Origin: Terfezia claveryi
Lineage: Eukaryota; Ascomycota; Pezizomycetes; Pezizales; Pezizaceae
Length of the DNA: 64,000 bases
Direction of reading: 5' to 3'
NCBI GenBank assembly: GCA_015179025.1
Contig: WHUX01000184.1
Span: 40,576-104,575, forward strand
Shown here piece after piece: positions 9,530-29,224 of the stretch (within the stretch, counting starts at the first letter, position 1; each line of letters begins with the position of its first letter). The notes beneath the pieces were generated by a model. That model was not told where the DNA came from. It saw only the letters and a program-made list of their open reading frames with translations, and searched no databases. Position numbers and translations under genes: made by a program.

Positions 9530-10243
9530 TTAAGTTGTCTCGTCTAGGACGTACATTGGCATGGAGCGGCGTCGCCCGCCTCGGACTGTCACCCACGCCA
9601 CCAATTCACTTTCCACTGGTACATTTTCGATTCTTATAACATGGGGGGCATTATTACAACTTACGTTGAAACCGTTGCAATAACAAATGCCCTTGCGAAT
9701 TGGGGACAGGTCCACCCACTCTAATAGCATTACAGCCGGCTCTCGTCTGTCCCCCGGACCTTGTGCCTTCCAATGTTTCTCCAGCTCCACCCCGAGATGC
9801 CCGATCAACTCTGGCCTCTGAGGTGATACCTCAGTGCGTAGGTGTGGTTGATGTTTGGCAAAACATAATGCACAGACGACTTGATATATCAGCTTCCACC
9901 TTATAATGGTATGGTGCTTGTGTTGGGACTCCTCTCGCAGGAATCTTAATATATTCTGCCGTGATCCCGGACTGCCCCCATACACGAGACCGTAAATAAC
10001 GTGTCTTGCTACCTCGGCTGGCCACTCGAGACGAGAGGTCCGTTCTTGGCAGTCTGCACACATAGGGATTTGGCAGTGGATGCAGACCTTCCGGTTTCTT
10101 GTGTGAACTAATTGACAGGTAAAAGAGACAGAGGACACAGAAACAACTGCTGCGAAAGGTGCTATACAAAAGGGTAGGAGGAGCTGGTGGGGTTGGAATC
10201 TTTTGAATCGGTTGGAATGTGGTGCCGAGACTAGATGGAATGC
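9530..10243 (-). pseudogene. Unknown Cys-rich protein frame truncated by the large transposon
   Basis: An uninterrupted minus-strand frame of about 238 codons runs from the transposon junction at 10243 to a TAA at 9530. Cys pairs are visible (CIHCQIPMCADCQE near 10050-10090; CALCFAKH near 9850; CYCNGFNVSCNN near 9650), suggesting metal binding, but no family is recognised. The only start codon is a GTG inside the transposon end, so the real 5' part must lie elsewhere. If the transposon is removed, the frame stays open into the sequence right of 27077, so the gene was probably split there. The LINE at 8355-9527 abuts its stop. Confidence 0.4.
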
Positions 10244-10353
10244 TAGTCTGGTTGGCACAACACCCTCCTTTGGAGGGTCTAGTATATAACATTTATTTTT
10301 TGTATGTAGGCCAGTTTATGGCTGGCCGCTTGGCGAAACTGCACCAAACGTAA
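10244..10353 (+). repeat. Left terminal inverted repeat of the large transposon
   Basis: 110 bp, matching the reverse complement of 26967-27076 with about five differences, mostly transitions. An internal palindrome, ccctcctttggaggg, lies at about offset 20-35. The outermost motif recurs elsewhere in the window. Confidence 0.9.
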
Positions 10354-10463
10354 ACAAAGTACCAAGCAACTACAAGTCAAATACAATGGATAAATCAAGT
10401 GAAGATGTAAACAAAGTACCAAGCAACCACAAGTCAAATACAATGGATAAATCAAGTGAAGGC
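10350..10463 (+). repeat. 57-bp tandem duplication at the DUF6589-like gene start
   Basis: Two copies start gtaaacaaagtaccaagcaa at 10350 and 10407. The unit is 19 codons, so the duplication keeps frame and repeats MDKSSE with two possible start ATGs (10386 and 10443). Confidence 0.8.
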
Positions 10464-12976
10464 AAAAAACGAAAGCGAGAGAGCAAGGCGAAGTTCGACA
10501 ATAATGGCAGTCGAATTGAGACTAGAGGTCGACCAAAGAAGATAAGTATTTTACATACAGTGCCTCATTAGAAGACACTTCAAGCACAATAGGAGGCTGC
10601 GCCTAAGCTACAAGCTATACAACATTTGATTCAAGAAGGATTTGGGAGTCTGAGAGATTTTCTTCAAGCTTGGTTTAATAATCCGGTAATGAAGTCTCAA
10701 AGAGATAATTTTATATTAGCAGGAGCTCGAGAAATGATGGAGTTGTGGTTATCAGATGTTCTGGGAATAGAAAGTCCTGCGAGTTTAGAAGACCTTATAA
10801 GAACACAAGCAGAAAATAATGTCGACTGAGAGATTGAAGAACTCGCATGAGAACAAAGCTCAATTATGCGATATGTAAGAGGTTATACCCTAGCAAATAG
10901 GAGGATCATGGCAGGCCTTGAAGAAATGGAGATATACGTTCGAGGGAAGGCACCTATCTTCTGGGGATTATGTGAGAAGGTGGTACTTGGGAATGTTTCC
11001 AAAGGGAAAACATCGATAGTGGTTCTAAGCTCAATCTTGAGCTTGGTCAATAATCGTAATCAAAAGGTCAATGCATATCAAACCTTGGTGGGTGCATTCC
11101 TATATGCGAACCATATTTAAAAGGCCAGGTTGGAAGTATTGTACGAATTGGGGATTTGCTGTTCTTACACTCATTTGAATCATTGCTTTAAATAAATGTC
11201 AGATATTGTACAGTCTGATATAGGCAAAATGGCTTCTAAAAGAGCTATGAAATTAACATTAGACAATGTTAACCAGATGGTTAAAGTCAGGGATAGAAGC
11301 AGCACCAGACAATCCCTGATGGATAATAGTACCCGGAGTTTTGTATGTCCGGTGAGAGGACTGAGATTAGGGGTTCGATTCTTACCTAAAGAGTGGAAGA
11401 CAATAGGTGGAAGAATAAGATTGCAATACAGCGATTTGGGGCCTGAAGACAAGGCATTAGATTACATGAGTGCCTTTAGGAAATTTGTGCTCTATAGCCT
11501 TCTGGAGGGGGAATTAGGAAAGAATAAGCTTCCAGGTGGGAAGGTGTATGAGATGCTAATGGTAGAGGTGGTTGATTCGTCCAAAGAGTTTATATTTCAT
11601 TTAGGTCTATTACGTTCGGAACAAGCTTCCGTACAGGGAAACTTGGATAGAATTAATAATGGATTGTCAGAGCTGGGTTATTCGAAGCAGGATCTATGCA
11701 GTAGATTGTTTTTAGTAGGTGGGGATCAGGTATGTTGGTTTTATGGGACTGTATAGGGGCAGGATCAAGCTAACAGATGATTTGGGGTCAGGTATTGGAA
11801 GAACGTCTAAGAACAATATAAAAATTGAGGGAAAGTGATGTACTTGGGGAGAATTTTAGTGGAGTAATGGCTTTACTTGGGCCATTACATACGAGGATGA
11901 ATTATAAGCATTGTATGCTTAAAGGTCATTTGGGATCAAAAGATGGGTCTTTGGCTGGGAGTCTCTTCAGTTTCAACAAGATATTAAGGAGGCAGTATAT
12001 TGATGAGGGAGCAGGGAATTATTAGAATTGCATTGATTTCATGAAAGATTCCCTGGATGCCGTATTGCGAGAATTGTTGGTAACAAAGGCTTGTTATGAG
12101 AACTGGGAGCAGTTGAGAGTATGTGTGAAGAGTAATGAGTGCAACTGGGAAGCTTTAATTGAAGAGGTAGATAGTTTGCTAGAGTACTACTATATTCCCT
12201 TAGCAAGAGCAAAAAAGGATGAGGAATATGATAGGGTATTTGAAAATATATTGCTTTTCACTAGGCAAGAGTTGGAATTCCAGGCTTACTATAAAGCCAC
12301 AAGGTTAGGAGATGTGGGGGCAATGGAATATCTATTACAATTCTTGGGACCTCAATTTCTGGGTTCAAATCATTCAAAATATGCCAATGCTCTCATGGAA
12401 ATTAGAGTTGGGATGGCAGCGGAATGGTCAGAGGAACTGAAGGAAGTGGTTCGAGCGAATTGGGTAATAAATCCATGGGGAAAAAGGGGGAAGTTCTTAG
12501 GACTTGATGAGTTCATGAAAGAGCTGATAAGGGCATATAAACAGCAATACAACCCAGAAGCTTTAGAGAACCTAGATGAGTATATGAGAAAGGTCATTGC
12601 TCATTATATTGTTTACTTCATGCAGGTCAAGGAGGACATGAGGCATGCAATTGGGCTAAGGCAACATAGTGGGAATCATGTAAAATCAGATCGATCACCA
12701 GATGTGAGGGCCCTATTGGATGACTTATTAGATAAAAAATGGTTGATAGAAGTTAAAGGGAGAGGGAAGCCTGATGAAGGAGAAGGCTTTGTGGGACATC
12801 CGGAGGTGCGAGATATGATGGAAGCCAGTCTTGTCAAGATGATGGATGGGCAATGGTGGGGATCTTTTCTGGCGAGGTCCCTAGGGTGCATATGTATAAT
12901 GAAAATAGATGAAATGTTACTAGGAATAAGTGAGCAGGATATCATGGAGGTTGATCTTAGAGATATGGAGGAATAA
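10386..12976 (+). pseudogene. DUF6589-like protein with N-terminal AT-hook (candidate transposase), multiple stops
   Basis: One frame runs from ATG 10386 to 11729. A probable 47-bp intron (gtatgt at 11730 to cag at 11776) follows, then a second frame to the TAA at 12976, about 847 residues in all. The N-terminus is Lys-rich with an AT-hook, RGRPKK, near 10528. Segments resembling the DUF6589 family are NAYQTLVGAFLYANHI (11070-11117), LTLDNVNQMVKVRD (11250-11292), LFLVGGDQ (11706-11729), LHTRMNYK (11888-11911) and FLGSNHSKYANALMEI (about 12355-12402). The Asp of LTLDNVN and of GGDQ could be RNase H-fold catalytic residues (inference). About eight in-frame stops, each one transition from CAA, CAG, CGA or TGG, show decay. 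It is convergent with the helicase gene. The assignment rests on recalled family patterns. Confidence 0.65.
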
Positions 12977-13349
12977 GTGCCTGGTACTATTATTATATAC
13001 ATTGAAGTAGCTATATGAAAATGTAGGCAATCATGCAATCAAATAAATATCACTAAGTAGATGATGTAGTCCTTAATACTGTAGTTCTATTAGAAGCCCT
13101 AATAGTTACAGGACTAAATTCATATCCTGGAGCTTGAATGGTTTGCCATCGGGGTATAGCTAGAATAGCTGATTGTAATGGCTGGTTGGACTATTCAGTG
13201 AGTTCAGTAACTTCGGTAACGGTATTCCTGTGTAAAGGAGCTGTAGCTGTCTGGCTTGTTCTTCTTGAAGTTGAGAGAGTTATTTGTGGAGGTATATTTT
13301 CCTTATCTCTGGAAAAGCTTGGATTTTGAGAAGATATAGACCTCTCATA

Positions 13350-15214
13350 CTATATAAGAGCTTCAATGAGTTCTGATTTCCGGCCTGATACTGGTTGACT
13401 ACACTTTCTAAGAAAACCCTTGAGTTCAGGGACTGTATGAGAATAATAATGAGCCTCAAATCTTTTGGTTTGGGCCTCTAGTATATTAGTGATAGTAGAA
13501 GGAATTACTGGTTGAAGGGGTGTGGTAAGTTGGGTATCCTGAGAGCAGTCACCAATGATGCGAACATTTATTCTTTGAGAAGGTATTGTAGGTATTCCCA
13601 TAGTTGCGCTAGGTACATCCATATGATTCATGACAGTGTGGCAGATTGTTTCCGAGATTTGCAGACCTGTAGTAGACTTGTTTTAGTTTATAAAGCTGAA
13701 AAGGCAGGCAGTGGGCTTCGAACCATATAATTGGAACTATTTTGCATTAATTGTAAAGCCAGAGATTCTAAGGATGTGTTCTTTGGAGTGGATACCCCGG
13801 CAGTTACTGGCCAAAGATTCGATCTGTGCAGTTGAAAGACTGTATTCTAGTGTCAATATTCTGTGCATATTTTGTAGAAGTGCTTCATACAAGGTATATC
13901 TGAGGCTTATAATACAACTTTTGACAGCTGCATGCAAAGTAGAAGATGCATGAGAAAAGGTTGATGCAGGTCGAATTGGTATTGTGAAGTGAGAAACTGC
14001 ATCCAAAAAGCCAGGTACTAACCTAGTAATTGCCTCAGATGCTCCACAATTGTCACAGCAGGTACTTGGTGATGGACAATTGTATTCTTTATCCCCATAG
14101 AATCCTAATATTATCTTCTGGCAACACTTGATCTGATTTGGCGTATTGATGAATTTAAATAAGCCAATATCCAGTTGATTCCTCTTGTTGTCATCTTTGG
14201 GTTCGCCATCGGGATTTCTTTTCTTAGGATTATGACCGCCTCCTTTATGCGACCCAAACCATTCTTTTTCTGCGAAAAGAATATAAATGCCTTGCAGATT
14301 AGGATCGCGTGCACAACGTCCAAACCGTTGATACAAGGTATCCAGGTTGCCGAGTTCTTTAACTCGCCATTGAATAACTCTCTGAACCCGCTGGTCATTA
14401 ACACCCATGCCCCATACTGAAGTAGCCACCAATATACGACATTCGCTATTCATCCAGTCCCTCTGAATATGCCTTTTGGCTGTTGCGGAAAGAGTAGCAT
14501 GATAGACTGCAATTACCTTCTCACTGACAGCTCAAATATCGCAATCCCAGTCTGGTATGTAATGGTAATCCGGCCTTAGATATGTTGCTTGAGGTAATAG
14601 GCTACGCAATTATGCAGCTACTCCGTGAGCTGTAAGCTTCTGATTGACATAAACAATGGTCAAGCGAATTTGAGTATAATGACTGGTCTGAGGTACCAGG
14701 AAATCTAAGTCCTTTTGACCAAGCATACCTATTCCCTAGATTTCTTGCACTACATAAAACAGATTAGGTCGGTCAATGCCCTCTATAATATATATGCCCT
14801 CTTTTGATATTCCCAAATGTGAGCGTATCCTCTGCATTACTCCTGGACTTGCTCTAGCAGTACATGCCGCAAAGGGAACATCCTGCAAAGAATTGCGGAT
14901 GGTATCCAGCTTTGCAAAAGCTGGTCTGAATTCAGTTCCCCTATTAAAGAAATATGTCAGATTTGATAGGCAAACTGCTCGGAAGCAACCGGATGAAACA
15001 TGCCAAACTGGCTTGTGGATGCTCTAGAAGCAAGTTTGAATACCCAAAAAACATTGGATTATATACCATGTTGGGATAATATGATATTCATCAACAACTA
15101 TAAAGCCGATCTGAGTTCTCAACTCTTGCCCATGTTTAAAGATCAATTTTTGTAATGCACTGTCCCGATCTAGTAATTTCTCTAGTGCTAGATACACTAT
15201 AAACAATATTTGTG
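13350..15214 (-). pseudogene. RecQ-type DNA helicase, 3' part (split by gypsy insertion), with Zn-binding and SAP-like regions
   Basis: This continues the frame of 23641-24022 without shift once the gypsy element and one TSD copy are removed. Visible in order are motif II as VVDEYH (near 15090), a segment with RPNLFYVV (near 14760), GMGVND and the arginine-finger motif QRFGRCARD (14300-14410), and a RecQ zinc-binding cysteine cluster (CC...CPSPSTCCDNCG, 14040-14130). A SAP-like helix pair (VPELKGFLRKCSQPVSGRKS) lies at about 13360-13430. Several TAG, TAA and TGA codons interrupt it. After the TAG at 13350 the frame stays protein-like for about 50 codons (DKENIPPQ), so the true end may be nearer 13.1 kb. 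The family unwinds DNA 3'-5'; here it probably serves element mobility (inference). Confidence 0.75.
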
Positions 15215-15219
15215 AGAAT

Positions 15220-15739
15220 TGTAACAACCGTGTGTTCAGTTGTCATCACCTGCGATCGCAGGTGATGGGTTATTGTTATCGTTACCTTTTCCTTGGCTTC
15301 CGAGATAGGGAAGCTTATTTCCCCCATTGCCCTGACCGAGTTATGTATATATAGAGCCTGTCCCTCGTACTGTCATTGGATCCCCATCCAACGTTTTGTA
15401 TACCTAATACAGGACCTTGCTTCCCCCAGCGCTTGTGCACCTCCCTTGTGCACATCCTTGTCTCGAACAAACAACTCTGCAGTACAGCTGCCTCCCTTGA
15501 CACACGCGGCAACTACCTCCGCGTGTCTCGTATCCCTTGCCCTCTGCCTTTCTTGCCTCTTGCCTCTTGCCCTTGCCCCCCGTCTCTGTCTTCCCCTGGT
15601 CACACACGTAGCGTTCCTACGTGTGTCTTACCCTAGCCTCTCCCCAGATCACACACGTAGCACTCCTATGTGTGCGATTGCCCCTTGCCACTTCCCCGGT
15701 GTACCCCTTGGTCGCCTTACCCCCAGAGCCGTTGTTACA
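15220..15739 (+). repeat. 5' LTR of gypsy copy 2
   Basis: Begins tgtaacaaccgtgtgttcag and ends ccgttgttaca. It contains the palindrome cacctgcgatcgcaggtg and a TATA-like tatatatag at about 15344-15353, likely the promoter for the element transcript. Two acacacgtag palindromes lie in the downstream half. The sequence just after it, acgttggatc, may belong to the primer-binding site. Confidence 0.9.
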
Positions 15740-15775
15740 TTACGTTGGATCTTCTCGACCAACTGGTACGCTGTC

Positions 15776-16942
15776 ATGTCCGGAACCCCTCCACCCGCTG
15801 TCAGGTTTCAAACCTGGAGGAACTCCCCTATACCCTCAGGCCCGAACGAATTGAATGCCTATCGTCGAGAGATCATCAACATCTTCGAGGCTATGGATGC
15901 CATCGGGGCTGAATTCGGCAACAGCATGGCCGTGGCCGAACGAAAGCTGAGATCCACCGACGAAGAGATCATGGTCCTCCAGACGGATCTCGACCATGTG
16001 AACCTTGCCCTAGCTACCGAACGGACTACAGTACAAAACCTCGGCCGCGCGCTGGCGAATCTGGCTATCCCTACGCCAACTACCACCGCCAAAACGGAAA
16101 GTATCCCCACCCCCCCTAAGTTCAATGGGGATAGGGCTCGTCTACGAGCCTAGAAAAATGCGGTGTACTTGAAGTTGAGCGGGGATTCGGCTAGGTTTCC
16201 GTCAGAACAACACCGCCTGGCCTATGTGTTTGCCCTGCTGGAGGGCAAGGCCACGGATCAAATTCAGCCGTATGTGCTCGAGACAAGAATCAAGCTCGAC
16301 AACGTCTCAGCCTTGTTTGTTATCTTAGATCGGGCATTCGGAGATCCTGATGCAGTAGGGACGGCCAGGCGAGTGCTCCGGGCACTGAGACAGCACAAGT
16401 GAGAGCTGTCTACTTACATTGCAGAGTTCTCGAGGCTGGCCGCAGAGGTAAGGTGGAACGACCAGGCTAAGTTCGAGCAATTCCAGGAGGGGCTCAGCGA
16501 TGAGCTCCAACAAGCCATGGTTACCCTCCCCGCAGTTGATACCCTTGAGGAGTTGATCGACCAGGCCTCTCGGGTAGAACAGCAGATGTCCCGGCTCCGC
16601 AACCACCCCCCGTTCAGGCCAGCACTCCGTCTCCCACCACTCCAGCAACACCATGCCACCAAAGCAGATCAGGCCCCTGCCCCCGCCAATCAACCAGCAC
16701 ACCCATCGTTGGTAGCAGGAGGGCCCACCCCCATGGATTTATCATCAGGCAGACCCCGCCTGACCCAAGAAGAGAGGGAACGCCGCCAGAATAATAGGCT
16801 ATGCATAGCCTGTGGGAAGGCTGACCACTTCATTGCAGCTTGCCCCCTTCGAAAGAATCGCTCCCTCGCCATCTACGCCATATCCGAATCACGGATCGAA
16901 GAAGCTGGTGAAGAGTCGGGAAAAGGAGAGTCCCTTGCCTAG
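15776..16942 (+). pseudogene. gag: gypsy copy 2 gag with two nonsense codons
   Basis: The frame opens at ATG 15776, 36 bp after the LTR, and runs 388 codons to 16942 with only two stops: TAG at 16151-16153 (copy 1 indicates Trp) and TGA at 16400-16402 (CGA expected). The N-terminal half is helical (TDLDHVNLALATERTTVQ), followed by a retrotransposon gag core (FSRLAAEVRWNDQAKFEQF) and a CCHC knuckle, CIACGKADHFIAACPL, at about residues 342-357. It forms the particle capsid and binds RNA in the family. Pol starts in another frame 42 bp later, so intact members may use frameshifting or reinitiation. Confidence 0.85.
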
Positions 16943-18435
16943 TTACTGACACTAGCAAGGGACCTGCCCAGGGTCATTTATCTTTGTCTGCATTTTCTTT
17001 GCCTACATCTATGTCTGTTGATGAGTCTCGTCTGTTTGGCGAGCACTTCGTTGTACCTATAACTGTCAAGTTCAATGATAAAACAGTGGTTACATCAGCT
17101 CTCATAGATTGTGGTACTTCAGGAATAGCATTCATTGACCAGACCTTCGTCAGTAGAAACTCTATACCAACCTCCAAGCTAAAAACCCCTCGCCTTCTTG
17201 ATGTCATTGACGGCCGTCCTATCTCTTCTGGGGGATTACTGACCTCGCATGCCTGCCCAGCGCTATGGGTGATCACTCGGAAGATCTCCCAATGTTCGTA
17301 ACTAAGCTAAAGTATTCAATTGTCCTTGGGATCCCTTGGCTTAGGATGCAGGATGTATCAGTCAGTTTCGGCTCTTACACCCTGCGATTCAACAGCTCTT
17401 ATTGCAAAAAACACTGTGGAGATCCAAAAACCACTGTCACTGGGCTGTGCGCATTGCCACCCCCAATAATCCACCCGACTCAGGTGGTACTCCCGCCTGC
17501 ACACATCAATGCCACCATTCCCTCTGTTTCCCTAGTTTCCCTGGTTACCCCTGTTCCCCCAGTCTCCCCGATATCCCCCACCCCCCGCAAAACCCCTGAA
17601 TATTAACTTTATTAGAGCAGAGGCCTTCACTCATCTTACCAGGAGGCATAAGCTCAAGGCGCATACCCTCTCAATTTATGAGATCAATCTGGAAATTAAC
17701 AAGACCAGGTCCAAGGAGGAGTGGAAATCCTTGGTTCCGAATGAGTACCATAAGTTTATTGATTTGTTCTCAGAGAAGGCCACGGAAAAGCTAGCCCCCC
17801 ATCGACCATACGACCACACAATCTCGTTGATTGAAGGAAAAACTCCCCCTTATGGCCCCCTCTATGGAATGTCCCGAGTGGAATTGGAGGCCCTGAAGAA
17901 GTACCTGGAGGAAAACTTGAATAAGAGCTTCATTCGGCACAGCTCTTCCCCGGTGGGTGCTCCTGTACTGTTCGTGAAGAAATCGGATGGATCTCTTCGG
18001 TTGTGTTTTGATTATCGTGGCCTGAACGAGATAACGGTCAAAAACAGGTACCCCTTACCTCTAATTCAGGAGACATTAGCCAGGCTTTCCAAGGCAAAAT
18101 GGTTCACCAAATTGGACTTGAGAGGGGCGTACAACCTGGTACGGATCGCTGAGGGTGAGGAGTGGAAAACTGCCTTCCGGACACGTTACAGCCACTTCGA
18201 GTACAACGTCATGCCCTTTGGCTTAACCAATGCCCCGGCCTCTTTCCAACACTTTATTAACGACACTCTGCGAGACTTCCTGGATGTGTTCTGCATGGCT
18301 TACCTCGACGATATCTTGATCTATTCAAATACTCTGGCAGAGCACAAAATCCATATCAGGCAAGTCTTGGAGAAGCTGGAGCAGGCTGGGCTGTACCTTA
18401 AGCCTGAAAAATGCGAATTCCATGTCCAAGAAGTA

Positions 18436-20687
18436 CTGTATATGACGGGGAAGCGGGACACGACAGGGAAGCGGGACAATTTCGGCTAGATACATGCAAG
18501 TAGAAAAAAAGATACAAAATTCAATTCCGGCGCGGCCTCAATACTCGCTGCTGCTGAGGTGGGTTTGAGGGTACCCTGCGGAGCCTAGGAGCGGGTGTGG
18601 GTGTAGGGGGTACAGAGCTTGTGGTTCTATGGCCTGGTATAGTCCCCGGAGTCCGAACATAGATAGTACTGCCTTCAGAGCCACTTTCAATGCTCTCATA
18701 TTCGGTATCATCAGCCCGAAAACTCGGACCTGATGCGCACGATGATGATGATGAGCTGATAGAAATGCAGGTAGTAGTGGTTGGACGGTTGGACCTTGGT
18801 GGGCGGTTGAATGTGACCGTTTTGGAGGGGCCTGTGCATTGTTTCCTTGGCGTCTTCGGTGTGGACTGCTGGGCCAGTTGTGCGCGACGTAGCTTCAACA
18901 AATCCTCCCCAGTGATAGCCTTAGCTTGTGTGAGCTTTGTACGCTTTCTTGCCTCCTTTGCTTCCTCTACCTTAATTGCCAATGCCGCCTCAATCTGCTT
19001 TGCTCGGTCTTCTCCAAGATACCCCCGTGTCAAACTACCAATAGCTGCATTAGCTAGTTTGTCAACTAATACTTGAAGTTCAGGGTCATCTATAGCTTTC
19101 AGATACTGTTGTATTTGCTGGTGAAGGTGACGGACTCCTCGGTTATTAGCAGGAGTGGCTGGAACTCCTCCAGTTGTAATAGATATTAATGGAGCTTTTG
19201 GATCAGCTGCTGCAGTACCAGTATATTGACCTAAAACTCGACGTGGATTGAATGGATGAATCCCTGTAGTTTCGAATGCAGACAGAATATTTTTGAGTAT
19301 ATATGCTGATATTCGAGCCTCACGGAAGTGTCTAATTAGTATTAGTAGTAGCTCAATATTGATAGACGCTTATACACTTTAGGGTCTTGGTATTCGACTA
19401 GATACTTACGGGAGGAAATTTCTCTTACTAATTGCTTCTCCAGTTAAGCGTAAATGATCCTCTACTCGATGTCCATAATATTTTTGCAAAGGTCCAAATA
19501 GTCCGACATCTAGAGGCTGGAGAATATGTGTGGTATGTGGTGGTAGGCAAAAGAGCTCAATTTGGTTTTTACTACAAAACCGAAGAAAGTCCATACTGAA
19601 ATGTGAGTTGTGTTCATCAACAACTAGTAAACGCTTTTTATTTGGATTCCTCATACTAAAGTCCATTAGTTAATAATAAAAATTAAAAGGATAAGTAGAT
19701 TATAAGTACCGCTTCCGAGTAAGAGGATCAAATAATAAACGTAAATATTCCAAACCAAGAACTTGATTTGTCCAACCTTTAAGTGAAACAGAGAACACTG
19801 TATCTTTATATTTTTCATCAAGATAATTATGCCATTGTGCGAGCTGTGATTTACCCTTATAGATAATCATGGGAGGTAGAAAGGTTCCATCAGCTGCAAC
19901 TGTCTCTATCGCGGTAATTAATTCCCGGTTGCCATCTTTCATTAAAGGTGGACTCTTTCTGCCTCGCACACAAATCACCTTGACACGAGCAGACTTTCCC
20001 ATTTGTAGGCCCTTTTCATCCATATTGTATAGATTGTATGGTTTGATGGCATTTTGCTTTATTAGAGGACCAAGAATATCGAATGACTGCTTAAGCAGCT
20101 TCGGATCTGAGCTCACGATTCGCTGCTTTTTAACTTGTGTACTGAACTTAGATGCAAGGTGTGGATGGCGATCTAAAAACCGACTAATCCAGTGCTTCCC
20201 CAAGCGTGCTGTTTGTTCTATTTGGCCTTCCCGCTCCGCTAATATCCTCAAAGCAGTTTCTCGCACACTATCCACTCGCATCGGAAAACCACGACGATCC
20301 ATATCTTCAATTTGCCTGACTACAGACTGCTCCTCAGCTGCCCCCAGTGTCTGATCCAACTCGTGTGCCTTTCGCCTTGACTTGCGACCTTTTAAACGGG
20401 CATGCACCGTACTTTTGGGCAATCCTTGGCTCTCAGCCGCCTGACGTATGCTTGGGTACTTACCTGTCTTATATCCCTGAATTGCCTTAGCAATATCAGC
20501 CTCGATTGCCGCTTCTTTAAGTTGACGTGGTTTAACTCGTCCCATATTGCTACTTTGGTCGTTGGCAAGTTGTCCAGAGTATTACTTGTCGCGGGGTGGG
20601 GCTTAAAAGGCGGGGCAATGCAGAAAAAGCAATATGAGACATTGTGTCCCGCATCCCTGTCGTGTCTCGCTTCCCCGTCATATACAG
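18436..20687 (-). mobile_element. pogo-type (Tc1/mariner superfamily) transposon nested in gypsy RT
   Basis: A 2252-bp element whose ends read ctgtatatgacggggaagcg inward from both sides. The inverted repeats run about 45 bp with few mismatches and contain two gaagcgggaca-like subrepeats. It is flanked by TA at 18434-18435 and 20688-20689. Removing it restores the gypsy sequence gaagtaaaatacg. It is the innermost and so most recent layer of the nest. It holds one transposase gene with two introns and no stop, so it may be autonomous. Confidence 0.95.
18521..20545 (-). CDS. pogo-like DDE transposase, 630 aa, two introns, apparently intact
   Basis: Exons on minus are 20545-19710, 19655-19410 and 19331-18521. 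Introns of 54 bp (19709-19656; gtactt...tttag) and 78 bp (19409-19332; gtaagt...attag) each contain a ctaa-type branch sequence. Splicing joins codons cleanly (RKR|MRNP and FLP|HFREAR), giving 630 residues. An N-terminal psq-type HTH (residues 5-50, SIRQAAESQGLPKSTVHARL) precedes a CENP-B-type HTH (about 65-135, KHWISRFLDRHPHLASKF). The DDE_1 domain has NMDEKG, VVDEHNSHFS and LQPLDVGLFGPL as the three acidic positions (D-D-D). The C-terminal tail is low complexity and basic (VLRPRRN). It cuts and pastes the flanking element at TA sites in the nucleus. No frameshift or stop was found. Confidence 0.9.
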
Positions 20688-23104
20688 TAAAATACGTGGG
20701 CTTGATCATAACTACGGAAGGTATTAGGATGGACCCCGCCAAAGTTACTGTAATACAAGAGTAGGAAACCCCAGCCAATTTGAAGGATGTGCAAGCCTTC
20801 CTAGGATTTGCTAACTTCTACCGCCGATTTATCCTAGGTTACTTAAGGATCGCGGCACCCCTAACGGCCCTGACGAAAACGAAGGTAGAAGCTGGTTCAC
20901 ACCTGACGAAAAGGGCCTTCCACTGGAATCCAGAAGCCCAATCCACCTTCCAGAACCTCAAGGAAGCTTTCTGCTTAGCACCGATCCTGGCCCATTTCAA
21001 CCCCGAACAGGAGTGTGTCGTCGAAACCGATGCCTCCGACTATGTCTCTGCAGGAATCCTGTCCCAGAACGACAATAACGGCATCCTCCACCCAGTGGCA
21101 TACTTCTCAAAAAAGCACTCCCCGGCGGAGTGTAATTATGAAATCTATGATAAGGAGTTAATGGCCATTGTGCGAGCGTTCGAGGAGTGGAGGCCACACC
21201 TAGAGTCAGCCAAGGGGAATATCGAGGTGCTATCCGAGCATAAGAATCTTGAGTACTTCACCACCACTAAGCTGCTGAACCGACGGCAGGCTAGATGGTC
21301 AGAGTTCTTATCTCGATTCAACTTCAAGATCAAGTATCGGCCTGGAAAAGCTGGGGGTAAGCCGGACGCACTGACTAGGAGATCAGGAGATCTCCCTAAA
21401 GGGGGGATGAAAGGCTGAAGTACCAAAATTAGGTGGTACTGAAACCTGAAAATCTCGACCTAGCGGCCAATAGCCTCGCTGAGGCTGATGCTAAAGCTGA
21501 AGTGAACCCCGGAGCAGATCTCCTTCGGCGGATACGACGGGCATATGCGGAGGACGACCTGGTTAAGGATATAATTGCCATAGTGGAGTCCGGACAGCGC
21601 CGTCACACCAAGATTTCCCTAGCCGATTGCACCACCCAGGACGGCCTCTTATACCACCTAGATCGGCTCTATATACCTGAAGGGGAGCTGCGGTTGCAGC
21701 TTTTCAAGGAACACCATGATACCCTAGCTGCGGGTCATCCTGGGGTAGCTAAAACGTTAGAGCTGCTAGCTAGGCAATATACATGGATTGACCAATGGAA
21801 GGAGGTGGAGCAGTACATACGGAACTGCCATGTTTGCAAGCGTGCTAAGCCTACCCGTCATGCTCCTTATAGGACCCTGAAGCCCCTGGAGATCCCAGAC
21901 CAACCTTGGTAACATCTAACCATAGACTTTGTGACTGGGTTGCCGGAGGATTCGGGGTTTAATGCTATTCTTATGGTAGTAGACCACTTGACTATAATGA
22001 GGCATGTTATACCTTGCCATGATACCTGTTCGGCCCGGGACCTCACCGGCCTCTACCTCAACCATGTATTCCGCTACTATGGTCTCCCCAAGTCAGTCGT
22101 CTCGGACCGCAGCCCCCAATTCGTCTTGGACTTCTGGAAGGTATTCTGCGAGCTTCTAGGAATCAATGTACACCTCTCCATGGTATATCACCCCTAAACA
22201 GATGGTCAGTCCGAGCGAATGAATGCGATCATGTAGCAGTACCTGAGAGCATACGTCAATTACCAGCAAAACAACTGGGTTTTGCTGCTGGCAACCTGTG
22301 AGTTCGCCGCTAACAACCATTTCTCGGAGACTCTAAAAACCTCCCCGTTCCTGGCCAATTATGGCTGGCACCCTCATTTGGTGGACTCCCTAGCACCCCT
22401 GGAAAAGCCTAGGGAGAACACCCCAGCTAAGGAGTTCGCCACGGAGATTGCTGAGTTGCACTCCACCCTAAAGGCCGAACTGGTATATGCTCAAGCCAGG
22501 CAAGCGGAGTATGCCAACGGATCACGGTTGCCAGCCCCCAGGTATCAGCCAGGAGATAAGGTATGGCTCTCCAGCAGGCACTTCCGAACAGAACGGCTAT
22601 CTCGCAAGCTGGATCACAAGTTCCTAGGCCACTATAAGGTATTAGCAGCTGTGGGCACTCATGCTTATCGGCTGAGGTTTCTCAAGGATATCAAGCGCCA
22701 TCAGGTCGTTCATGTCTCGGAGATCGAGCCAGCTGCCGACGATCCCCTTCCTAAGCAAAAGCACCCTCCACCTCCTCCAGTGGTGATTGCAGGTAAAGAG
22801 GAGTGGGAGGTTGAGGAGGTACTGGACTCAAGGAAACACTACGGACGAGTTCAGTATAAGGTCAAGTGGTTAGGGGATGAGGAGACTACCTGGCAACCTG
22901 TGGAGGACTTGGAGAATGCGCAAGATTTGGTCACCCTGTTCCACCAACGATACTCGAGGAAGCCTCGCCCAGTTGAATGATGTCAGACCTTTTGCATTCT
23001 TGTTGTTGTTTGGAGTTGGAGTTCTTGTTTCTACCGTTGTTGTTGTCTTCTGTATTGATTTTGCCGGTTATTGTGCCCAGGCCTCCTAGTCGCTGGAGCT
23101 CCAG

Positions 23105-23120
23105 CCTAAAGGGGGGATAG
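23105..23120 (+). other. Polypurine tract of gypsy copy 2
   Basis: cctaaaggggggatag lies immediately before the 3' LTR at 23121. In this family it primes plus-strand DNA synthesis. Confidence 0.8.
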
Positions 23121-23640
23121 TGTAACAACCGTGTGTTCAGTTGTTATCACCTGCGATCGCAAGTGATGGGTTATTGTTATTGTTACCTTTTCCTTGGCTT
23201 CCGAGATAGAGAAGCTTATTTCCCCCATTGCCCTGACCGAGTTATGTATATATAAAGCCTGTCCCTCGTACTGTCGTTGGATCCCCATCCAATGTCTTGT
23301 ATACCCAATACAGGACCTTGCTTCCCCCAGTGCTTGTGCACCTCCCTTGTGCACATCCTTGTCTCGAACAAACAACTCTGCAATACAGCTGCCTCCCTTG
23401 ACACACGCGGCAACTGCCTCCGCATGTCTCATGTCCCTTGCCCTCTACCTCTCTTGCCTCTTGCCTCTTGCCCTTGCCCCCCGTCTCAGTCTTCCCCTGG
23501 TCACACACGTAGTATTCCTACGTGTGTCTTACCCTAGCCTCTCCCCAGATCACACACGTAGCGCTCCTATGTGTGCGATTGCCCCTTGCCACTTCTCCGG
23601 CGTACCCCTTGGTCGCCTTGCCCCCAGAGCCGTCATTACA
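23121..23640 (+). repeat. 3' LTR of gypsy copy 2
   Basis: 520 bp like the 5' LTR. I count about two dozen differences, one of them a transversion and the rest C/T or G/A. The TATA-like region is at about 23246-23255. It ends ccgtcattaca, followed by TSD agaat. Confidence 0.9.
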
Positions 23641-24022
23641 AGAATCATCCATGAGAAATTGCTTAATGCATACCCAATTGATATCGCCCCTTCTTGATGT
23701 CTTGCATCTTTACAGTGTTTCTGTCTACATCCCCTTCAACTAAGACGACTGCCTTTAGATATATATCAGCACATCTAGCCACTTGATCCTCTCTTAGAGC
23801 TTCAATTGGCGTAATGACAATCCCAAACTGCGAACCAAATAAGAAAGCTGCCATCTGAAAAGCCAAACTCTTGCCAAATCCAGTAGCTGCAACGCAGCTA
23901 ACATCCTTGCCTAAAAGAAGTGCCATAGCAAAGCCGATTTGTGCATCTCTTGGATCCAAACCTGTGCAAGTTTTTGTGATGTTAACTAGGACGTCCCTAA
24001 GTCTCTCATAACGAGGGGTCAA
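23641..24022 (-). pseudogene. RecQ-type DNA helicase, 5' part (split by gypsy insertion)
   Basis: This contains the Walker A motif VAATGFGKS (near 23880-23905), preceded by a Q-motif-like stretch (DPRDAQIGFAMALLLGKD) and followed by motif Ia (VITPIEALREDQ). It runs in frame up to the gypsy insertion, with a TAA and TGA just before it. No ATG opens this segment. The frame continues upstream (QSQEWEL), so the true start is probably in an upstream exon near 24.05-24.15 kb. See the 13350-15214 entry for the rest of the protein. Confidence 0.75.
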
Positions 24023-24186
24023 TTCCCATTCCTGGGATTGGATAATACATTTTGTACAGCTTGACTAGTGGAAGCTATTTTGCGAGAATAGGTGATATGG
24101 ATTGAATATGTGAATAGGATTTCATAGAGTCATATGGGATATGAGGATGTTGTAGAGTAGGAGCTAGATAGTATTTACAAATGTAG

Positions 24187-24417
24187 TCTGGGTGTTGTGC
24201 CAACCAGACTATACAAATGCGGATTGAAGCTGCTAAAGAAACACACTAGCGGAATAGAAAACAAACCTCATCAAAACAAATAGGGGACAACTTGAAGCGA
24301 TAGTATTAGAGTCACGTCATAGATTACATATACGTATACAAAATCACTAGGTCATTTTTACATCATAAGAACAAAAATAACCTAGTGAACAGTGAGGGTG
24401 TTGTGCCAACAAGGCTA
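24187..24417. repeat. Internal copies of the transposon end motif between gene 3 and the helicase
   Basis: 24192-24211 reads gtgttgtgccaaccagacta, and 24394-24417 reads gagggtgttgtgccaac followed by aaggcta. Both are in right-end orientation. They lie in the gap upstream of the helicase and downstream of the unknown gene. They could be transposase-binding or promoter sites, or scars of smaller insertions. Confidence 0.55.
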
Positions 24418-24529
24418 GATATTAGTCTGGTCAATGAGACTAATCGAGGCACATAACTAACCAAACTACCCATTAACCTCAAGTCTGTATTTTCCTCTCT
24501 AACCTAATTAACATAATATCCTCTCTTGT

Positions 24530-26866
24530 CTAATTCCCCCCAGTTCCCAGTGATGCAGGAGCAGTAGAGCTATCTGTACTAGTTTTAGAGATTTCCTCCT
24601 GAGTGCTGCCAGCAACCGGCGTTTCAGACCTAACACGGAGTTCTGTTGCATTGAATACAATATCCCCACCTGGTATCTGCACACTACTAGTAGGCCCCCC
24701 TCCACTAATTCTACTATTGCCTGTGCTCATACTTTGTACCCCATTGTCCCCGCTCAACATTCCTGCTTGCATCAATCTCCCATTACCCATACCTTGTACC
24801 TCTTTCTCTTCCCTCCCGCCCTGCATTACCCCTCCAAATATTCCCGATTGCATTAATCTTCCCTGCTCCATATACATAATACCCCCACTTGGCATTGTGA
24901 AACCTTGTGACATCATATGTGGGGAATACATAGCTCTAGGTTGGAAAAAATTGAATGGATATCCTGTGCCCTGATTCATATGACTGCTCTAATGACTACC
25001 TTCATGAATGCCCCCCCTTCCTTAAGCTAACTGTACCTGAGCCGAATAGCCATTATTTTGAGCAAACTGCTGTTATGTGCCAGAGATGTTGCCAGTATTG
25101 TATGTATTAACTAGCCTACGAAATACCCCATTTTTTCGCATTGCACCAACCCAAGTCGGAAAGGATCCCATCACTTCAATAGCTGTAGGTCTTTTGATAT
25201 CCAATGCCCTATTCTCAATCCTAGCATCCCTCTCACGATCTAATGCGTTGTTGAAACATTTCTTTGCATCTTGTATGAACTTTCCAACAGCCATTTCGAC
25301 TTCTTTGCCCTTTTGCACTCTGTCATAAAAAGCGAATTCGCCCATCATATGTTTTTCTATCTTGTCAGCCTCTTCTTCAATTGCCTTTGCCTTCTGATCC
25401 GCCTCCATAGATAGATTTCGAAGTCCTATAGCCCTTACTTTATGAGTTTCTACCACCTATTTGCAACGTTAATGAAACGGTAGGACATTAAACAAATCCG
25501 GAACATCAGTAAGCTGTGCCTGAATGCCCAATCGATTTTCTGGAGTCTCTAAATACTGATCAATCTCATTCTTCAATACAGACTCTACAATTTGCTTATT
25601 CAAGTGTGTATATTTCAATGCTCTATAAATGCTTACAGGCCCTCGCCGCTTGCTACAAGAAGCTGGCTTCCTGATGGCAGGCCACTCAACTACCCTTCCT
25701 TCATCGGATTCACCACATAATATTTTATTTGCTTTTAAGATCGCTTAGGTTACCAATTCGCTCCTATATGGATATGCCTTAGGAAGGAAATTCGAATTCT
25801 CCCTAGAATTCTCCTCTTTCAAATGGTAAGTGACCATCCAGGCTATAATCGTAGCTGCAGCGTTCTGGAAGCGACCTCTCCAAAAGGGATTCTGATAGAT
25901 GAAATCCAGTTCGACAATATCCAACACTACACTCCAGAAATCCGAAACTAACTCCATATTCCCTTTCAGAAACATTTTTTCAACATCTTCAGCAGCCAAG
26001 TATGAATAATTGTCATTAATGTTCTTTGCACCGCATTGTTCCACAAGGTAGAATAAGGAATCCAAGCATTTTTAAGCCTCTTCACACTTGCAAAACATTT
26101 TCAATAGGCATTCAACATTCTCCCTCAATTTAGCCAATATTCCCTTATGGTATAGCCTCCATTGTCTACATACGATAATACCCAAGAGCTCATGTTTAGT
26201 AGCAGAGTCAGCATCTTTCTCTACATCCAGCAATTGCTTTTCACCCATACCTCAATCAGCCTGAGTAATGCAGTTTCGATCCTTAGTATCATGGTCCAAC
26301 CTCTTCCAAAACATCAAACCAACATGGAAATTCATGGCATTCTTAATCTCATTCCGCCCAATTTTGGCAGCCTCTTCGATCTATTCCTTGAAGTGCAGTT
26401 CAACCCAGTGTATGTTCATCAAAACTGGTAAAATATCTCTTGTCATTCGAGCGCTCTTTGCAGGGGGACATGGCGTACTAGGAGGCATTCGAGAAACTTT
26501 TGCTGGAATCACTGGAGTAATCACTAGGGTTTCTTCCTCCGCAGAACCTTCTTCACTGGAACTAGCCGACCTATCAAAATCGTCTTCCAAATCGCCTTCC
26601 AACCCTGGCTCAATCTTGATGTTCTTTACGAAGGTACCACCTAGGAATGCAACACTATCGTCTTGCCTAGTTGTATTTTGCTGGGGTTTCTTGCGTGTAC
26701 TAGGCCGTTTTACAGGGGTTGCTGTAGTGACTTTAGTTACTTTTGTTCTGCCCTTTATGCTACAGATTCCCCTAGTTAGTGTTTTGATTGCCGACACATT
26801 TGCACTTTGGATCTCTATAGCTGCTGCTAACTGGGGAGGCTTTGTGGCTAAGTTCTTTCCACGCAC
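24530..26866 (-). pseudogene. Unknown 779-codon gene of the large transposon, nine nonsense codons
   Basis: A single minus-strand frame runs from the right TIR side to 24530 with no indel. It is broken only by about nine stops (for example 26381, 25745, 25073), each one transition from CAA, CAG, CGA or TGG. The N-terminus is basic and Ser/Thr-Pro rich (TPVKRPSTRKKPQQ) followed by an acidic patch (GLEGDLEDDFD) and SSSEEGSAEEE. The middle is helical (LDSLFYLVEQCG, WRGRFQNAAATIIAWMV). A coiled-coil-like stretch (DQKAKAIEEEADKIEKHM) is at about 25350. The C-terminus is Met/Gly/Gln-rich and disordered. No family is recognised. There is no ATG at the expected start; the ATA before GTG 26866 could be a mutated ATG. 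It probably has a structural or DNA-binding role in transposition (weak inference). Confidence 0.65.
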
Positions 26867-26966
26867 TATAGTTGAGAGAAAGAAGTGTTGTATTTAAAGA
26901 GGGTTGAATTTGAGCGGTTATTGTAGTGCAAACAGACTATGTATCTATGTAGCTACATTAATATGA

Positions 26967-27076
26967 TTACGTTTGGTGCAGTTTCACCAAGCAGTCAGCC
27001 ATAAACTGGCCTACATACAAAAAATACATGTTATATACTAGACCCTCCAAAGGAGGGTGTTATGCCAACCAGACTA
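26967..27076 (-). repeat. Right terminal inverted repeat of the large transposon
   Basis: Reverse complement of 10244-10353 with about five differences. It is followed directly by the second TSD copy atggaatgc (27077-27085). Confidence 0.9.
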
Positions 27077-27085
27077 ATGGAATGC

Positions 27086-29224
27086 AAATGTAGTTTGATT
27101 CGCAATGTAGAAGTCGAGGGTAGAACTGACACATCCTAAAAGCGTGTAATCAGACTACTTAAAAGGAGGGGGTGGCTTAGTCTGGTTGCACTATGCCTCC
27201 ACAAAGGTCAATTGGTCCACCTATTGGCCAATAGGGCGAAGTCTACATTAGAACTACCTATTCACAAACCGATCACGGGTCTATGCATTGGCCAACGGAG
27301 CACTACATAAGTACCTAACCAAACTAGGGCTACCTATTCAAAAATTTCGTACAGACCGTCATTAACTTTAGTCTGGCTTTGACACTGCAATCAATTTCAT
27401 ATGCACCCCTGCATAAATGCTGGTTGCATTACATGGCCAAAACTTGTTTCAAGTTGTTTGACTCTAACCACAAAAAGTTGACAGAACCGGCCTCGGCAGT
27501 GATGTTTGGAGAGCTGTGGAGGGTGTTGTGCCAACCAGACTATTAGGAGAGGATGCTTTTGAAAGCAACCGATAGCACTCAAACTGGTGCATAGAACAGA
27601 TTTTACATATTCAGGTCTTGGCTTACATTCTATATGCACCGGCGGTGCACTAGTTGGCTGTTTGCCAATTCAGTGTAAGCCACAAGCAAACAGTCAGCTG
27701 TACGTTGATCCATGCCAATCCCTTGATTCAATCTTTTTTTTTTTTTGGCAATTCATTACTAGTACATACCCAACTCAGCTAACGTTATGATAAGGGGCTG
27801 CATCGCCGGCATCGCCCTAACAATTATCCACTCCCCTCCCATGGTCATCTATCCTAAGATTACAGTGTTTACCATCAGAACCCCAGCCCCACAACTGCTA
27901 GCCACCACCTGCCACCCCGCAACTTTGCCACTGAGAGCACTTCAAGTGCCGAAGAATCATAGATGGGCAGTCTAGAATGGTTTGGTTGCTGATTCCCTCT
28001 TAGACCCTGCATGTTGACTCTTCCCTCCTGCTTTATGATTCTTCCCTCCTGCTTTATGATTCTAATTCGTTTCTCTCAGGTTAACGCAAAGAGCAACTAC
28101 GAGTGCTCCCAGAGGGAGCAAACAAGAACTAGGTTTCGAAAAGGAAATAAAATATGGTCTTTTACAGCCTTCCTGACTATCTCATTAGCCACTAGCTCCA
28201 TAAGAAATCCACTTGATTGCCAGGGTACACTTTTTTTTGTTACTCCATGCTAGGGAAAATGGCAAGATACCTGGTGAGGGAGAAATAGAGGGTACCGCTG
28301 GGTTAAAAAAAAAATGGCAGGTGATAGGAATCTGGGTGATGAGTCCTCCAGTACTGTGATGGGGGCAGCTAAGGCGGGGAGGTTAAGAAAGTTCTTGAAG
28401 GTATAAAGAAAGATTATAGCAAGACTGGGTACTTGCGGAAGATTTCTTTGGGAGTGGGAAGAGTCAGCCTTTGAGATCATGGGAGCCTATATCAGATACG
28501 ACGGCAAGTATTGATAAATGCCATAGCTATTGTTCGATTTGCTACAGCTATAGGATATAGAGAAAAATAGAGAAAAAGTAAGAAAAACTACTGTAAATAT
28601 CCCTTTTCTACGGAAACTGGGATGAAAGAGAAGTGTTCGGTCTGAACTACAGGCATATGACCCTGTGAAAACAGAGCATATACCTAAAAAGATAGAGAAA
28701 AGTGTGAAACGCATAAATAACGCAATAAACCTATGTATGAGAGGTTAAGCAAGTGGGTCTTTATACAAGAAAGGCAAGCAAAAGCAAAGTGGTAAAAGAG
28801 AAATAATAATCAGCAAGTAATACAGGAGCTGTTAAATCAAGTTAAAGACCAGGATATTGAGGGAAAAAAAAAAATCCTTTGTGCGGACCATACAACAGGA
28901 AAACTGGAATGTAGGGCTACTTTATTGCAACAAAAGTCAACGTACAGAGGCATCTATGAAGACGTTAGTAGAAGAACCCCAGCAGAAAGAGCACGAGAAC
29001 GTCAGTACCTAGCTTAGAAGCGCAACTCCCTACACTTGTTCCACCAATCCCGGGAGTGAAACGTGACTTCGAAACGAACGTAACCAAATTCCTCGAGCAG
29101 ATACATGTCCTTTCTCAATATTTCTTGCACAGTCATCTTTGACAGAAGTTCCTAGGTGTGGTCTCTTGTACACAGTGGGTTGTCCGGTATTCCTTTTTTT
29201 TTTCTTTTTCTTTAAGATAATTCA
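27086..29224. other. Transposon end motifs and short repeats, no gene recognised
   Basis: 27174-27190 (ttagtctggttgcac) and 27519-27542 (gagggtgttgtgccaaccag) are further copies of the end motif. 28016-28060 holds a 21-bp direct repeat, cttccctcctgctttatgatt. Short ORFs here show no family signature. The part next to 27086 may hold the displaced 5' side of the frame at 9530-10243. Confidence 0.35.

Follow-up and report, generated by a model that had tools for sequence, protein, structure and literature searches.

A decayed DUF6589–helicase transposon of Terfezia claveryi and short copies of its tips that are likely scars of excision

A broken and decayed DNA transposon lies at 10244–27076 of the window, the 64-kb stretch of the Terfezia claveryi genome analysed here, with terminal inverted repeats (TIRs) inside a perfect 9-bp target site duplication (TSD), and carries a DUF6589 gene, a RecQ-SAP helicase gene and a third gene. 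On balance, we consider that its family moves by staggered cleavage, with one strand cut about 15 nt inside each element end, and that this probably leaves tip stubs flanked by the TSD. Many of the thousands of short tip copies in this genome are likely to be scars of such departures.

Structure of the element

The features located in the window were the following (strand in brackets where assigned).

10235–10243: left TSD, ATGGAATGC, read from the sequence
10244–10353 (+): left TIR, 110 bp, identical to the right TIR at 105 of 110 positions, with a weaker match reaching 10361
10262–10278 (+): subterminal palindrome, ACCCTCC-TTT-GGAGGGT
10464–12976 (+): DUF6589 gene interrupted by stops, its product a predicted transposase (PF20231 match and homology)
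13350–13679 (−): C-terminal part of the helicase gene including the SAP domain (SAP match)
13737–14531 (−): RecQ-type helicase C-terminal domain (domain search)
15220–23420 (+): nested Ty3/gypsy retrotransposon that splits the helicase gene (LTR pair)
23680–24090 (−): N-terminal part of the helicase with the ATGFGKS region, read by eye
24184–24211 (−): 28-nt tip stub within the element, TAGTCTGG...CCAGACTA, with an 8-bp flanking repeat
24632–26893 (−): third gene, broken by stops, with homology to P0004 over 24632–26506
26967–27076 (−): right TIR (repeat search and end comparison)
27077–27085: right TSD, ATGGAATGC, read from the sequence
61584–61614: 31-nt two-ended tip stub with a 9-bp flanking repeat

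A repeat search of the window paired 10244–10361 with 26959–27076 in inverted orientation (118 nt, 93% complementary). The 110-bp inverted ends given in the preliminary description of this DNA were recovered with 105 of 110 positions identical, as was its perfect 9-bp duplication, which stands at 10235–10243 and 27077–27085 without mismatch. Three genes had also been claimed in about 8.4 kb without the gypsy insertion; the genes are there, and removal of 15220–23420 leaves about 8.6 kb instead. The TIR is not a chance match, because its first 25 nt recur at 610 places in the genome with at most two mismatches (reversed control, 0) and two more three-gene elements have 9-bp TSDs of their own. 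The CCCTC-nnn-GAGGG core of the palindrome was found in all four TIR families read. The search for an empty site of the window copy yielded no paralogous one: apart from the flanks in the window itself, the joined flanks (300 nt) matched just one place, on contig C212, and that partially (84%).

All three genes are decayed. PF20231 (DUF6589) matches the frame window:12026–12976 on the forward strand (6.3e-37), and homology of this gene spans 10464–12883. Close to its start an AT-hook-like motif, RGRPKK, was read by eye, for which the domain models gave no match. The LTRs of the retrotransposon within the helicase gene (15220–15519 and 23121–23420; 300 nt each) are 96% identical. Helicase_C was matched above cut-off in the helicase, and the best NCBIfam match of the fragment is RecQ (TIGR00614, 1.5e-18), with a score below the curated cut-off because the fragment matches part of the model only. 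Its SAP domain scores 27.0 bits against a Pfam cut-off of 23.9, below which the counterparts in the related elements C235 (19.9) and C135 (15.3) fall. The N-terminal part resembles a frame of C135 (L072:5652–6146) that matches PF00270. The third gene is 49% identical to P0004 over 24632–26506 (reverse strand); P0004 matched no Pfam model above cut-off, nor anything in the PDB at E ≤ 1.

Related elements and gene linkage

Three further elements with TIRs and TSDs were found at C135:449886–459000 (TIR 120/120, a perfect TSD with CGTTCTGGT on both sides), at C235:51350–59448 (TIR 138/141, TSD identity 8/9) and on C656 (TIR 158/158 leaving aside the first two bases, GGTTGTGTG on both sides). Counting the window copy, all four have a 9-bp TSD (one of them 8/9 identical) and a helicase match. 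Three of the four (window, C135 and C235) carry DUF6589, helicase and third gene between their own TIRs, in identical order and orientation. Between the ends of C656 there are the helicase and the third gene, and no DUF6589 match was found there, the search with P0002 included. The expected neighbourhood of genes between such ends was seen in three elements and not in the fourth, which speaks against a strict three-gene rule.

The earlier proposal that DUF6589 and a RecQ-type helicase travel together was borne out, both by this shared gene order and by linkage elsewhere in the genome. A convergent helicase match lies within 12 kb of DUF6589 at 14 of 22 loci (our grouping of 43 matches), 0.17 being expected by chance; at the other eight no helicase match was found within that distance. 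A later search with P0002 gave partial DUF6589-like matches on seven more contigs, which have no helicase match and stand outside the 22-locus count. Four of the 14 helicase-linked loci are copies of one repeat. A second repeat family with helicase and DUF6589 occupies four contigs (C151, C62, C6 and C154; 97–98% identical), and neither tip nor TSD-flanked TIR was found for it in the DNA read. Third-gene matches occur at 10 places.

Tip stubs

The 15-nt tip of the element occurs 2,885 times in the genome (reversed control, 0). That about half of the tips in the DNA read would be short stubs between 9-bp repeats was unexpected, and the preliminary description does not mention them. The 363,543 bases read hold 168 exact tips, 118 of which are far enough from the ends; discounting 14 exact duplicates and 4 near-identical copies leaves 100 distinct tips (37 search targets and 63 others). 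Directly after a stub of 12–36 nt, an exact 9-mer repeat was detected at 32 of the 100 (control mean 0.37), rising to 49 when one mismatch was allowed (control mean 1.8), with no recognisable repeat within 36 nt at the other 51. Among the 63 tips that were not search targets the corresponding numbers are 16 (control 0.17) and 29 (control 1.1).

Tip sites picked by 25-mer were counted separately. These 71 sites come from 70 of the first 100 listed places (30 read as 3-kb loci and 40 as short stretches, one stretch holding two sites), the opposite element end being visible only within about 1.5 kb of a target tip. An exact repeat of at least 9 was present at 41 of the 71, comprising 36 one-ended and 5 two-ended stubs. 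The controls were less clean where counting was looser or uncollapsed: 24 of 208 against 47 of 71 sites in one count and, in the 71-site analysis, as many as 7 of 70 at certain offsets, which we attribute to six sites being copies of one repeat. Genome-wide, 50 two-ended palindromes were detected (control, 0).

Flanking repeats of 56 stubs measured 9 bp in 29 cases, 10 bp in 9, 11–12 bp in 6 and 8 bp, the shortest length sought, in 12. Stub lengths fall into two classes, 12–19 nt and 24–36 nt, and a single fixed stagger therefore does not account for all of them. Within the 65 nt searched, the inner ends concentrate in two narrow intervals, and many of them fall within or past the subterminal palindrome. 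No site both occupied and scarred was seen. An element bounded by one pair of tips in the window (8258 and 24211; flank match 8/9) would run across the left TIR and stop within the present element; this pair was taken as chance.

Discussion

The likeliest reading of the stubs is excision through long staggered cuts resembling those of the P element. DUF6589 would cleave the 3′ strands precisely at the termini of the element and the 5′ strands about 14–16 nt further in, immediately after TAGTCTGGTTGGCAC; with the cuts on the two strands so offset, a single-stranded tip would stay on each flank. One tail joined to the opposite recessed 5′ end would give TSD-tip-TSD, and both tails joined would give the palindromic stubs. 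Stubs of 24–36 nt could arise where the subterminal palindrome is cleaved a second time or brings repair synthesis to a halt. The RecQ helicase encoded by the element may aid the processing or repair of the break, much as Bloom helicase of the host does in the case of P elements, and the third protein may have an accessory part in assembly or DNA binding. TSD-flanked stubs of 12–19 and 24–36 nt would fit the long terminal tails that P-element excision leaves beside the TSD.

If excision is the right reading, the likeness to the P element extends to the long staggered cut, the junctions of TSD and tail and the RecQ-type (Bloom) helicase in repair (PMC7776569 and PMC2895639, as excerpted). According to the available part of PMC2895639, P-element donor ends retain 3′ tails of 17 nt, and TSD-tail junctions are what the displayed products of end joining contain; the excerpted PMC7776569 has Bloom helicase taking part in P-element repair. 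The P element differs in its 8-bp TSD, its 17-nt tails and its use of a host helicase, and no sequence relation of its transposase to DUF6589 was found (P0002 against Pfam; profile against PDB). The great excess of one-ended over two-ended stubs speaks against excision, and the few P-element junctions reported in the available part of PMC2895639 retain part of both tails. A literature search on solo TIRs or abortive gap repair together with other terms found nothing.

The prevalence of one-ended stubs (36 of 41) would instead suit abortive one-ended insertions, in which an element end is joined to a target with a 9-bp stagger and helicase-aided copying halts at about 15 nt or at the palindrome, a truncation like that of LINEs. 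Between its repeats every stub has an outer end that is exact and an inner end that varies, many inner ends lie in or beyond the palindrome, and the helicase is encoded by the element itself. Such insertions are possible, if unlikely, given the 50 two-ended palindromes and inner ends that keep to two short ranges and do not run on into the element over the 65 nt searched. The tip copies far exceed the roughly two dozen gene-bearing loci, and one could envisage a DNA transposon with LINE-like insertion, in which a RecQ helicase of its own powers copying that begins at one end on a target staggered by 9 bp, early stops at a hairpin having sown a large share of the 2,885 tips; we consider this unlikely.

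We predict that DUF6589, a Pfam family with no assigned function, is a DDE-type transposase, with D265, D416 and E579 of P0002 as candidate residues; in alignment rows having a residue there, these are conserved in 12 of 13, 10 of 11 and 7 of 7, and H450 in 11 of 11, other acidic columns being equally conserved. P0002 has no Pfam match above cut-off besides DUF6589, and the DUF6589 profile (A3) matched two designed coiled coils in the PDB (E 0.072 and 0.31) and no transposase. No RNase H fold emerged from two AlphaFold2 models, built from 13 and 15 sequences; both were of low quality (mean pLDDT 52.7 and 54.1), had no Foldseek match in the PDB at E ≤ 0.001 and speak neither for nor against such a fold. 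None of the papers searched names DUF6589 or ties it to transposition. C656, with TIRs, TSD, helicase and third gene and no DUF6589 match, would fit DUF6589 being a passenger or regulator and another protein, such as the third gene product, being the transposase. This is quite unlikely in view of the helicase pairing at 14 loci, which include the second repeat family without tips in the DNA read, and of the third-gene places, only 5 of 10 of which adjoin DUF6589 or helicase.

An origin of the stubs as MITEs, the usual short non-autonomous elements, or as a repeat multiplied in some other way is improbable. Stubs and large elements do share tips and flanking repeats, and some stubs sit in a repeat that is itself multiplied; against this, a one-ended stub has no second TIR that would allow its recognition as an element, and the signal persisted after near-identical copies were collapsed. 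Kolobok transposons duplicate TTAA at the target, whereas the TSD is 9 bp, without TTAA, in the four elements described here. KolobokH, also a transposon of fungi, likewise has a RecQ helicase (PMC9587614, in the part available), but the helicase here has a gene to itself, which lies on the opposite strand in convergent orientation and does not follow the transposase domain, and that the element is KolobokH is scarcely credible. A Helitron was rejected, TIRs and TSDs being present.

AcademH transposons have TIRs, and Kojima (2020) is said to have described them as Academ superfamily DNA transposons with a helicase. Compared by description only, AcademH appears to be the nearest known group in gene content and TSD length, and in outline the element is not a new superfamily. 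The preliminary description knew of no described group with such a gene set; AcademH, however, encodes a helicase and has TSDs of 9–10 bp (PMC10045372, as excerpted), to which the 9-bp TSDs found here correspond, and it is reported from Basidiomycota, Ascomycota and Mucoromycota (available part of PMC10799480). The likeness includes the helicase of the four window-type elements (RecQ family as best, partial match; Helicase_C), TIRs of 110 to more than 150 bp, a putative DDE-type transposase and occurrence in Ascomycota. The third gene and the tip stubs are a difference, going unmentioned in the available portions of PMC10045372 and PMC10799480. A literature search for Academ with XPG and other terms found nothing.

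DUF6589 and the RecQ helicase lie inside TIR elements with 9-bp TSDs, and the likely reason for their multi-copy state is therefore that they are transposon genes. The stubs matter more than this pairing. If they are excision footprints, the genome would keep a record of perhaps 1,000 or more jumps, a figure obtained by scaling the sampled share up to all 2,885 tips, and the elements that made them are represented by only about two dozen detected gene-bearing loci. The cut on each strand would then be legible from the DNA alone, and the mechanism of this little-studied transposon lineage could be tested directly at the level of single strands; the footprint reading, if true, would suggest a reason why the element bears a helicase.

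Structure of the elements

The window element spans 10244-27076, with ATGGAATGC on both sides and terminal inverted repeats (TIRs) identical at 105 of 110 positions; in a repeat search the TIR match reaches 118 nt at 93%. It carries three genes.

Genes of the window element
DUF6589 gene, + strand, by homology
Helicase gene, - strand, RecQ best NCBIfam match plus a SAP domain
Third gene, - strand, by homology

The inverted ends, the flanking duplication and the gene content of the preliminary description were thus recovered. TIGR00614 (RecQ) is the top NCBIfam match of the helicase (1.5e-18), a partial match below the curated cut-off, and the SAP domain lies above the Pfam cut-off. Stops are present in both the DUF6589 gene and the third gene, and this copy can therefore no longer function as a coding element. 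The helicase gene is split by a Ty3/gypsy-like retrotransposon (15220-23420; 300-nt LTRs, 96% identical), within which a Pogo/Fot1-like element is nested (18434-20689; DDE_1, Tc5-type HTH, 45-nt inverted repeats). Two 55-nt direct repeats, 98% alike, lie at 10350-10461, where the left TIR ends and the DUF6589 gene begins.

The surrounding assembly (72.6 Mb in 794 contigs) contains further TIR elements. Contig C135 was matched by P0001 and by P0004 (reference for the third gene), both Terfezia claveryi database entries.

Further TIR elements, by contig
C135:449886-459000, 9,115 bp; TIRs 120/120 bp identical; TSD CGTTCTGGT both sides
C235:51350-59448, 8,099 bp; TIRs 138/141; two TSDs differing at one base
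C656:44243-56805 (fetched stretches L005-L006); TIRs 158/158 bp identical outside the first two bases; TSD GGTTGTGTG both sides, perfect

In the C135 and C235 elements the third gene, helicase and DUF6589 are arranged and oriented as in the window element. Third-gene identity to C135 is 49% for the window and 26-35% for C235, and the three elements are therefore separate diverged lineages of one gene set. The C656 element holds a helicase and a third gene, arranged differently, but no DUF6589 match in genome searches with PF20231 and P0002 (reference for the DUF6589 gene); it may possibly hold a different or diverged transposase. The set of three genes is shared by the window, C135 and C235 elements, but the C656 element argues against making it a strict rule.

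DUF6589 and its linkage to the helicase

PF20231 matched 43 places in the genome, which we grouped into 22 loci (a count leaving out seven further contigs with partial P0002 matches: C58, C776, C257, C59, C190, C35 and C218, all lacking a helicase match), and none in 14 control genomes. The window helicase domain matched 24 places, also grouped into 22 loci. A convergent helicase lay within 12 kb of DUF6589 at 14 of the 22 DUF6589 loci against a chance expectation of 0.17, in support of the suggestion that the two genes travel together; these 14 are not all independent, since the copies on C151, C62, C6 and C154 are one repeat. C154 has one more pairing, in another orientation, beyond the 14, and no helicase was found within 12 kb of DUF6589 at 8/22 loci. 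The repeat on C151, C62, C6 and C154, a second helicase and DUF6589 repeat (L076 and L077 for C151 and C62), is 97-98% identical between contigs over compared lengths of 6.3 kb (C151 and C62) or 3.2-4.0 kb (C6, C154). Neither TAGTCTGG tips nor the ends of the repeat were found in the DNA read.

Thirteen homologues from database searches, 11 with precomputed PF20231, were aligned. Among rows having a residue at the position, D265 (within LDNVN) is kept in 12/13, D416 (GxDxL) in 10/11, E579 (ELExRAYYK) in 7/7 and H450 (LGPLHT) in 11/11. From sequence conservation, D265, D416 and E579, together with H450, are candidate catalytic positions of DUF6589 as a putative transposase; we infer this choice, as other acidic columns are equally conserved.

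Tips and stubs

Exact copies of TAGTCTGGTTGGCAC, the outermost 15 nt of the TIR, number 2,885 in the genome (1,432 + 1,453; reversed control, 0), and the surrounding sequence showed many of these tips not to be ends of long elements. Short tip pieces (stubs) stand between TSD-like repeats, e.g. TCTCCCGTC-TAGTCTGGTTGGCAC-TCTCCCGTC and CCCCTGGTG-TAGTCTGGTTGGCACAACACCCTCCACAG-CCCCTGGTG. Among 100 distinct tips (duplicates removed; control, 30 offsets), an exact 9-mer repeat directly followed a 12-36-nt stub in 32 (control mean 0.37, maximum 1), rising to 49 with one mismatch allowed (mean 1.8, maximum 8). The 63 of them not used as search targets gave 16 exact repeats (control 0.17) and 29 with one mismatch (control 1.1), the latter with stubs of 12-19 nt (16) or 24-36 nt (13).

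Of 71 tip sites chosen by 25-mer, 41 had an exact repeat of 9 nt or more (36 one-ended, 5 two-ended). Six of these 41 derive from a single repeat, and at three of the one-ended sites the repeats stand 57-60 nt apart; controls gave 0/70 at offsets 4-7 and up to 7/70 at others. A looser count gave 47/71 against a control of 24/208. For 23 of these 36 one-ended stubs, the inner sequence matches the beginning of a known TIR continuation. One stub, with a flank ending AAGTCAA, recurs in stretches L030, L031, L091, L098, L105 and L109, so the scarred repeat has itself been copied.

For the sister tip TAGTCTGGTTGCACTACCCC there are 221 genomic copies (control, 0). Tips of this type also form stubs, among them one 14 nt long whose last bases are GCAC; a relative, TAGTCTGGTTGCACTATGCCTCC, lies at window 27178-27200, beginning ~90 bp beyond the right TSD. 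Fifty two-ended palindromes have 14-nt tips separated by 30 nt or less (each reported for both strands; control, 0). TSD-flanked two-ended elements with exact 11-nt tips within one fetched stretch measured only 35, 50 and 54 bp, leaving out the window element and one pair taken as chance.

A possible origin of the stubs

P transposase is described as making its 5'-strand cut 17 nt into the element (PMC7776569). Donor ends retain 3' tails of 17 nt, and the end-joining products depicted are junctions between TSD and tail (PMC2895639). The stub features fit those that a P-like long staggered cut would predict, i.e. an exact outer end and, in one stub class, an inner end near nt 15. The repeat beginning exactly at the far side of the stub would reflect a tail joined to a recessed 5' end, and the rarer palindromic stubs two joined tails. 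The chief alternative is that stubs are abortive one-ended insertions.

Stubs of the longer class mostly stop within a palindrome, CCCTC-nnn-GAGGG, either in its loop or in its right arm. This palindrome is placed equally in all four TIRs, and as a single strand it folds better than shuffles in two of three TIRs tested (z -2.4 and -2.2; C135, +0.45). Under P-like excision, these stubs may stem from another cut at the palindrome or from repair synthesis that stalled there. A RecQ helicase in the element would fit excision, because Bloom helicase takes part in the repair of P-element breaks (PMC7776569).

Relation to AcademH

AcademH elements are described as combining a helicase with 9-10 bp TSDs (PMC10045372) and as occurring in Ascomycota (PMC10799480), so the earlier view that this gene set lacks a described superfamily is not supported. 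In the Marasmius oreades genome, putative non-autonomous Academ elements are described as inserted at many places (PMC8290104). The present elements show every AcademH feature tested (helicase, TSD length and TIRs). We call the three-gene element AcademH-like, claiming no new superfamily, and count it as a new form because of its third gene and its stubs.
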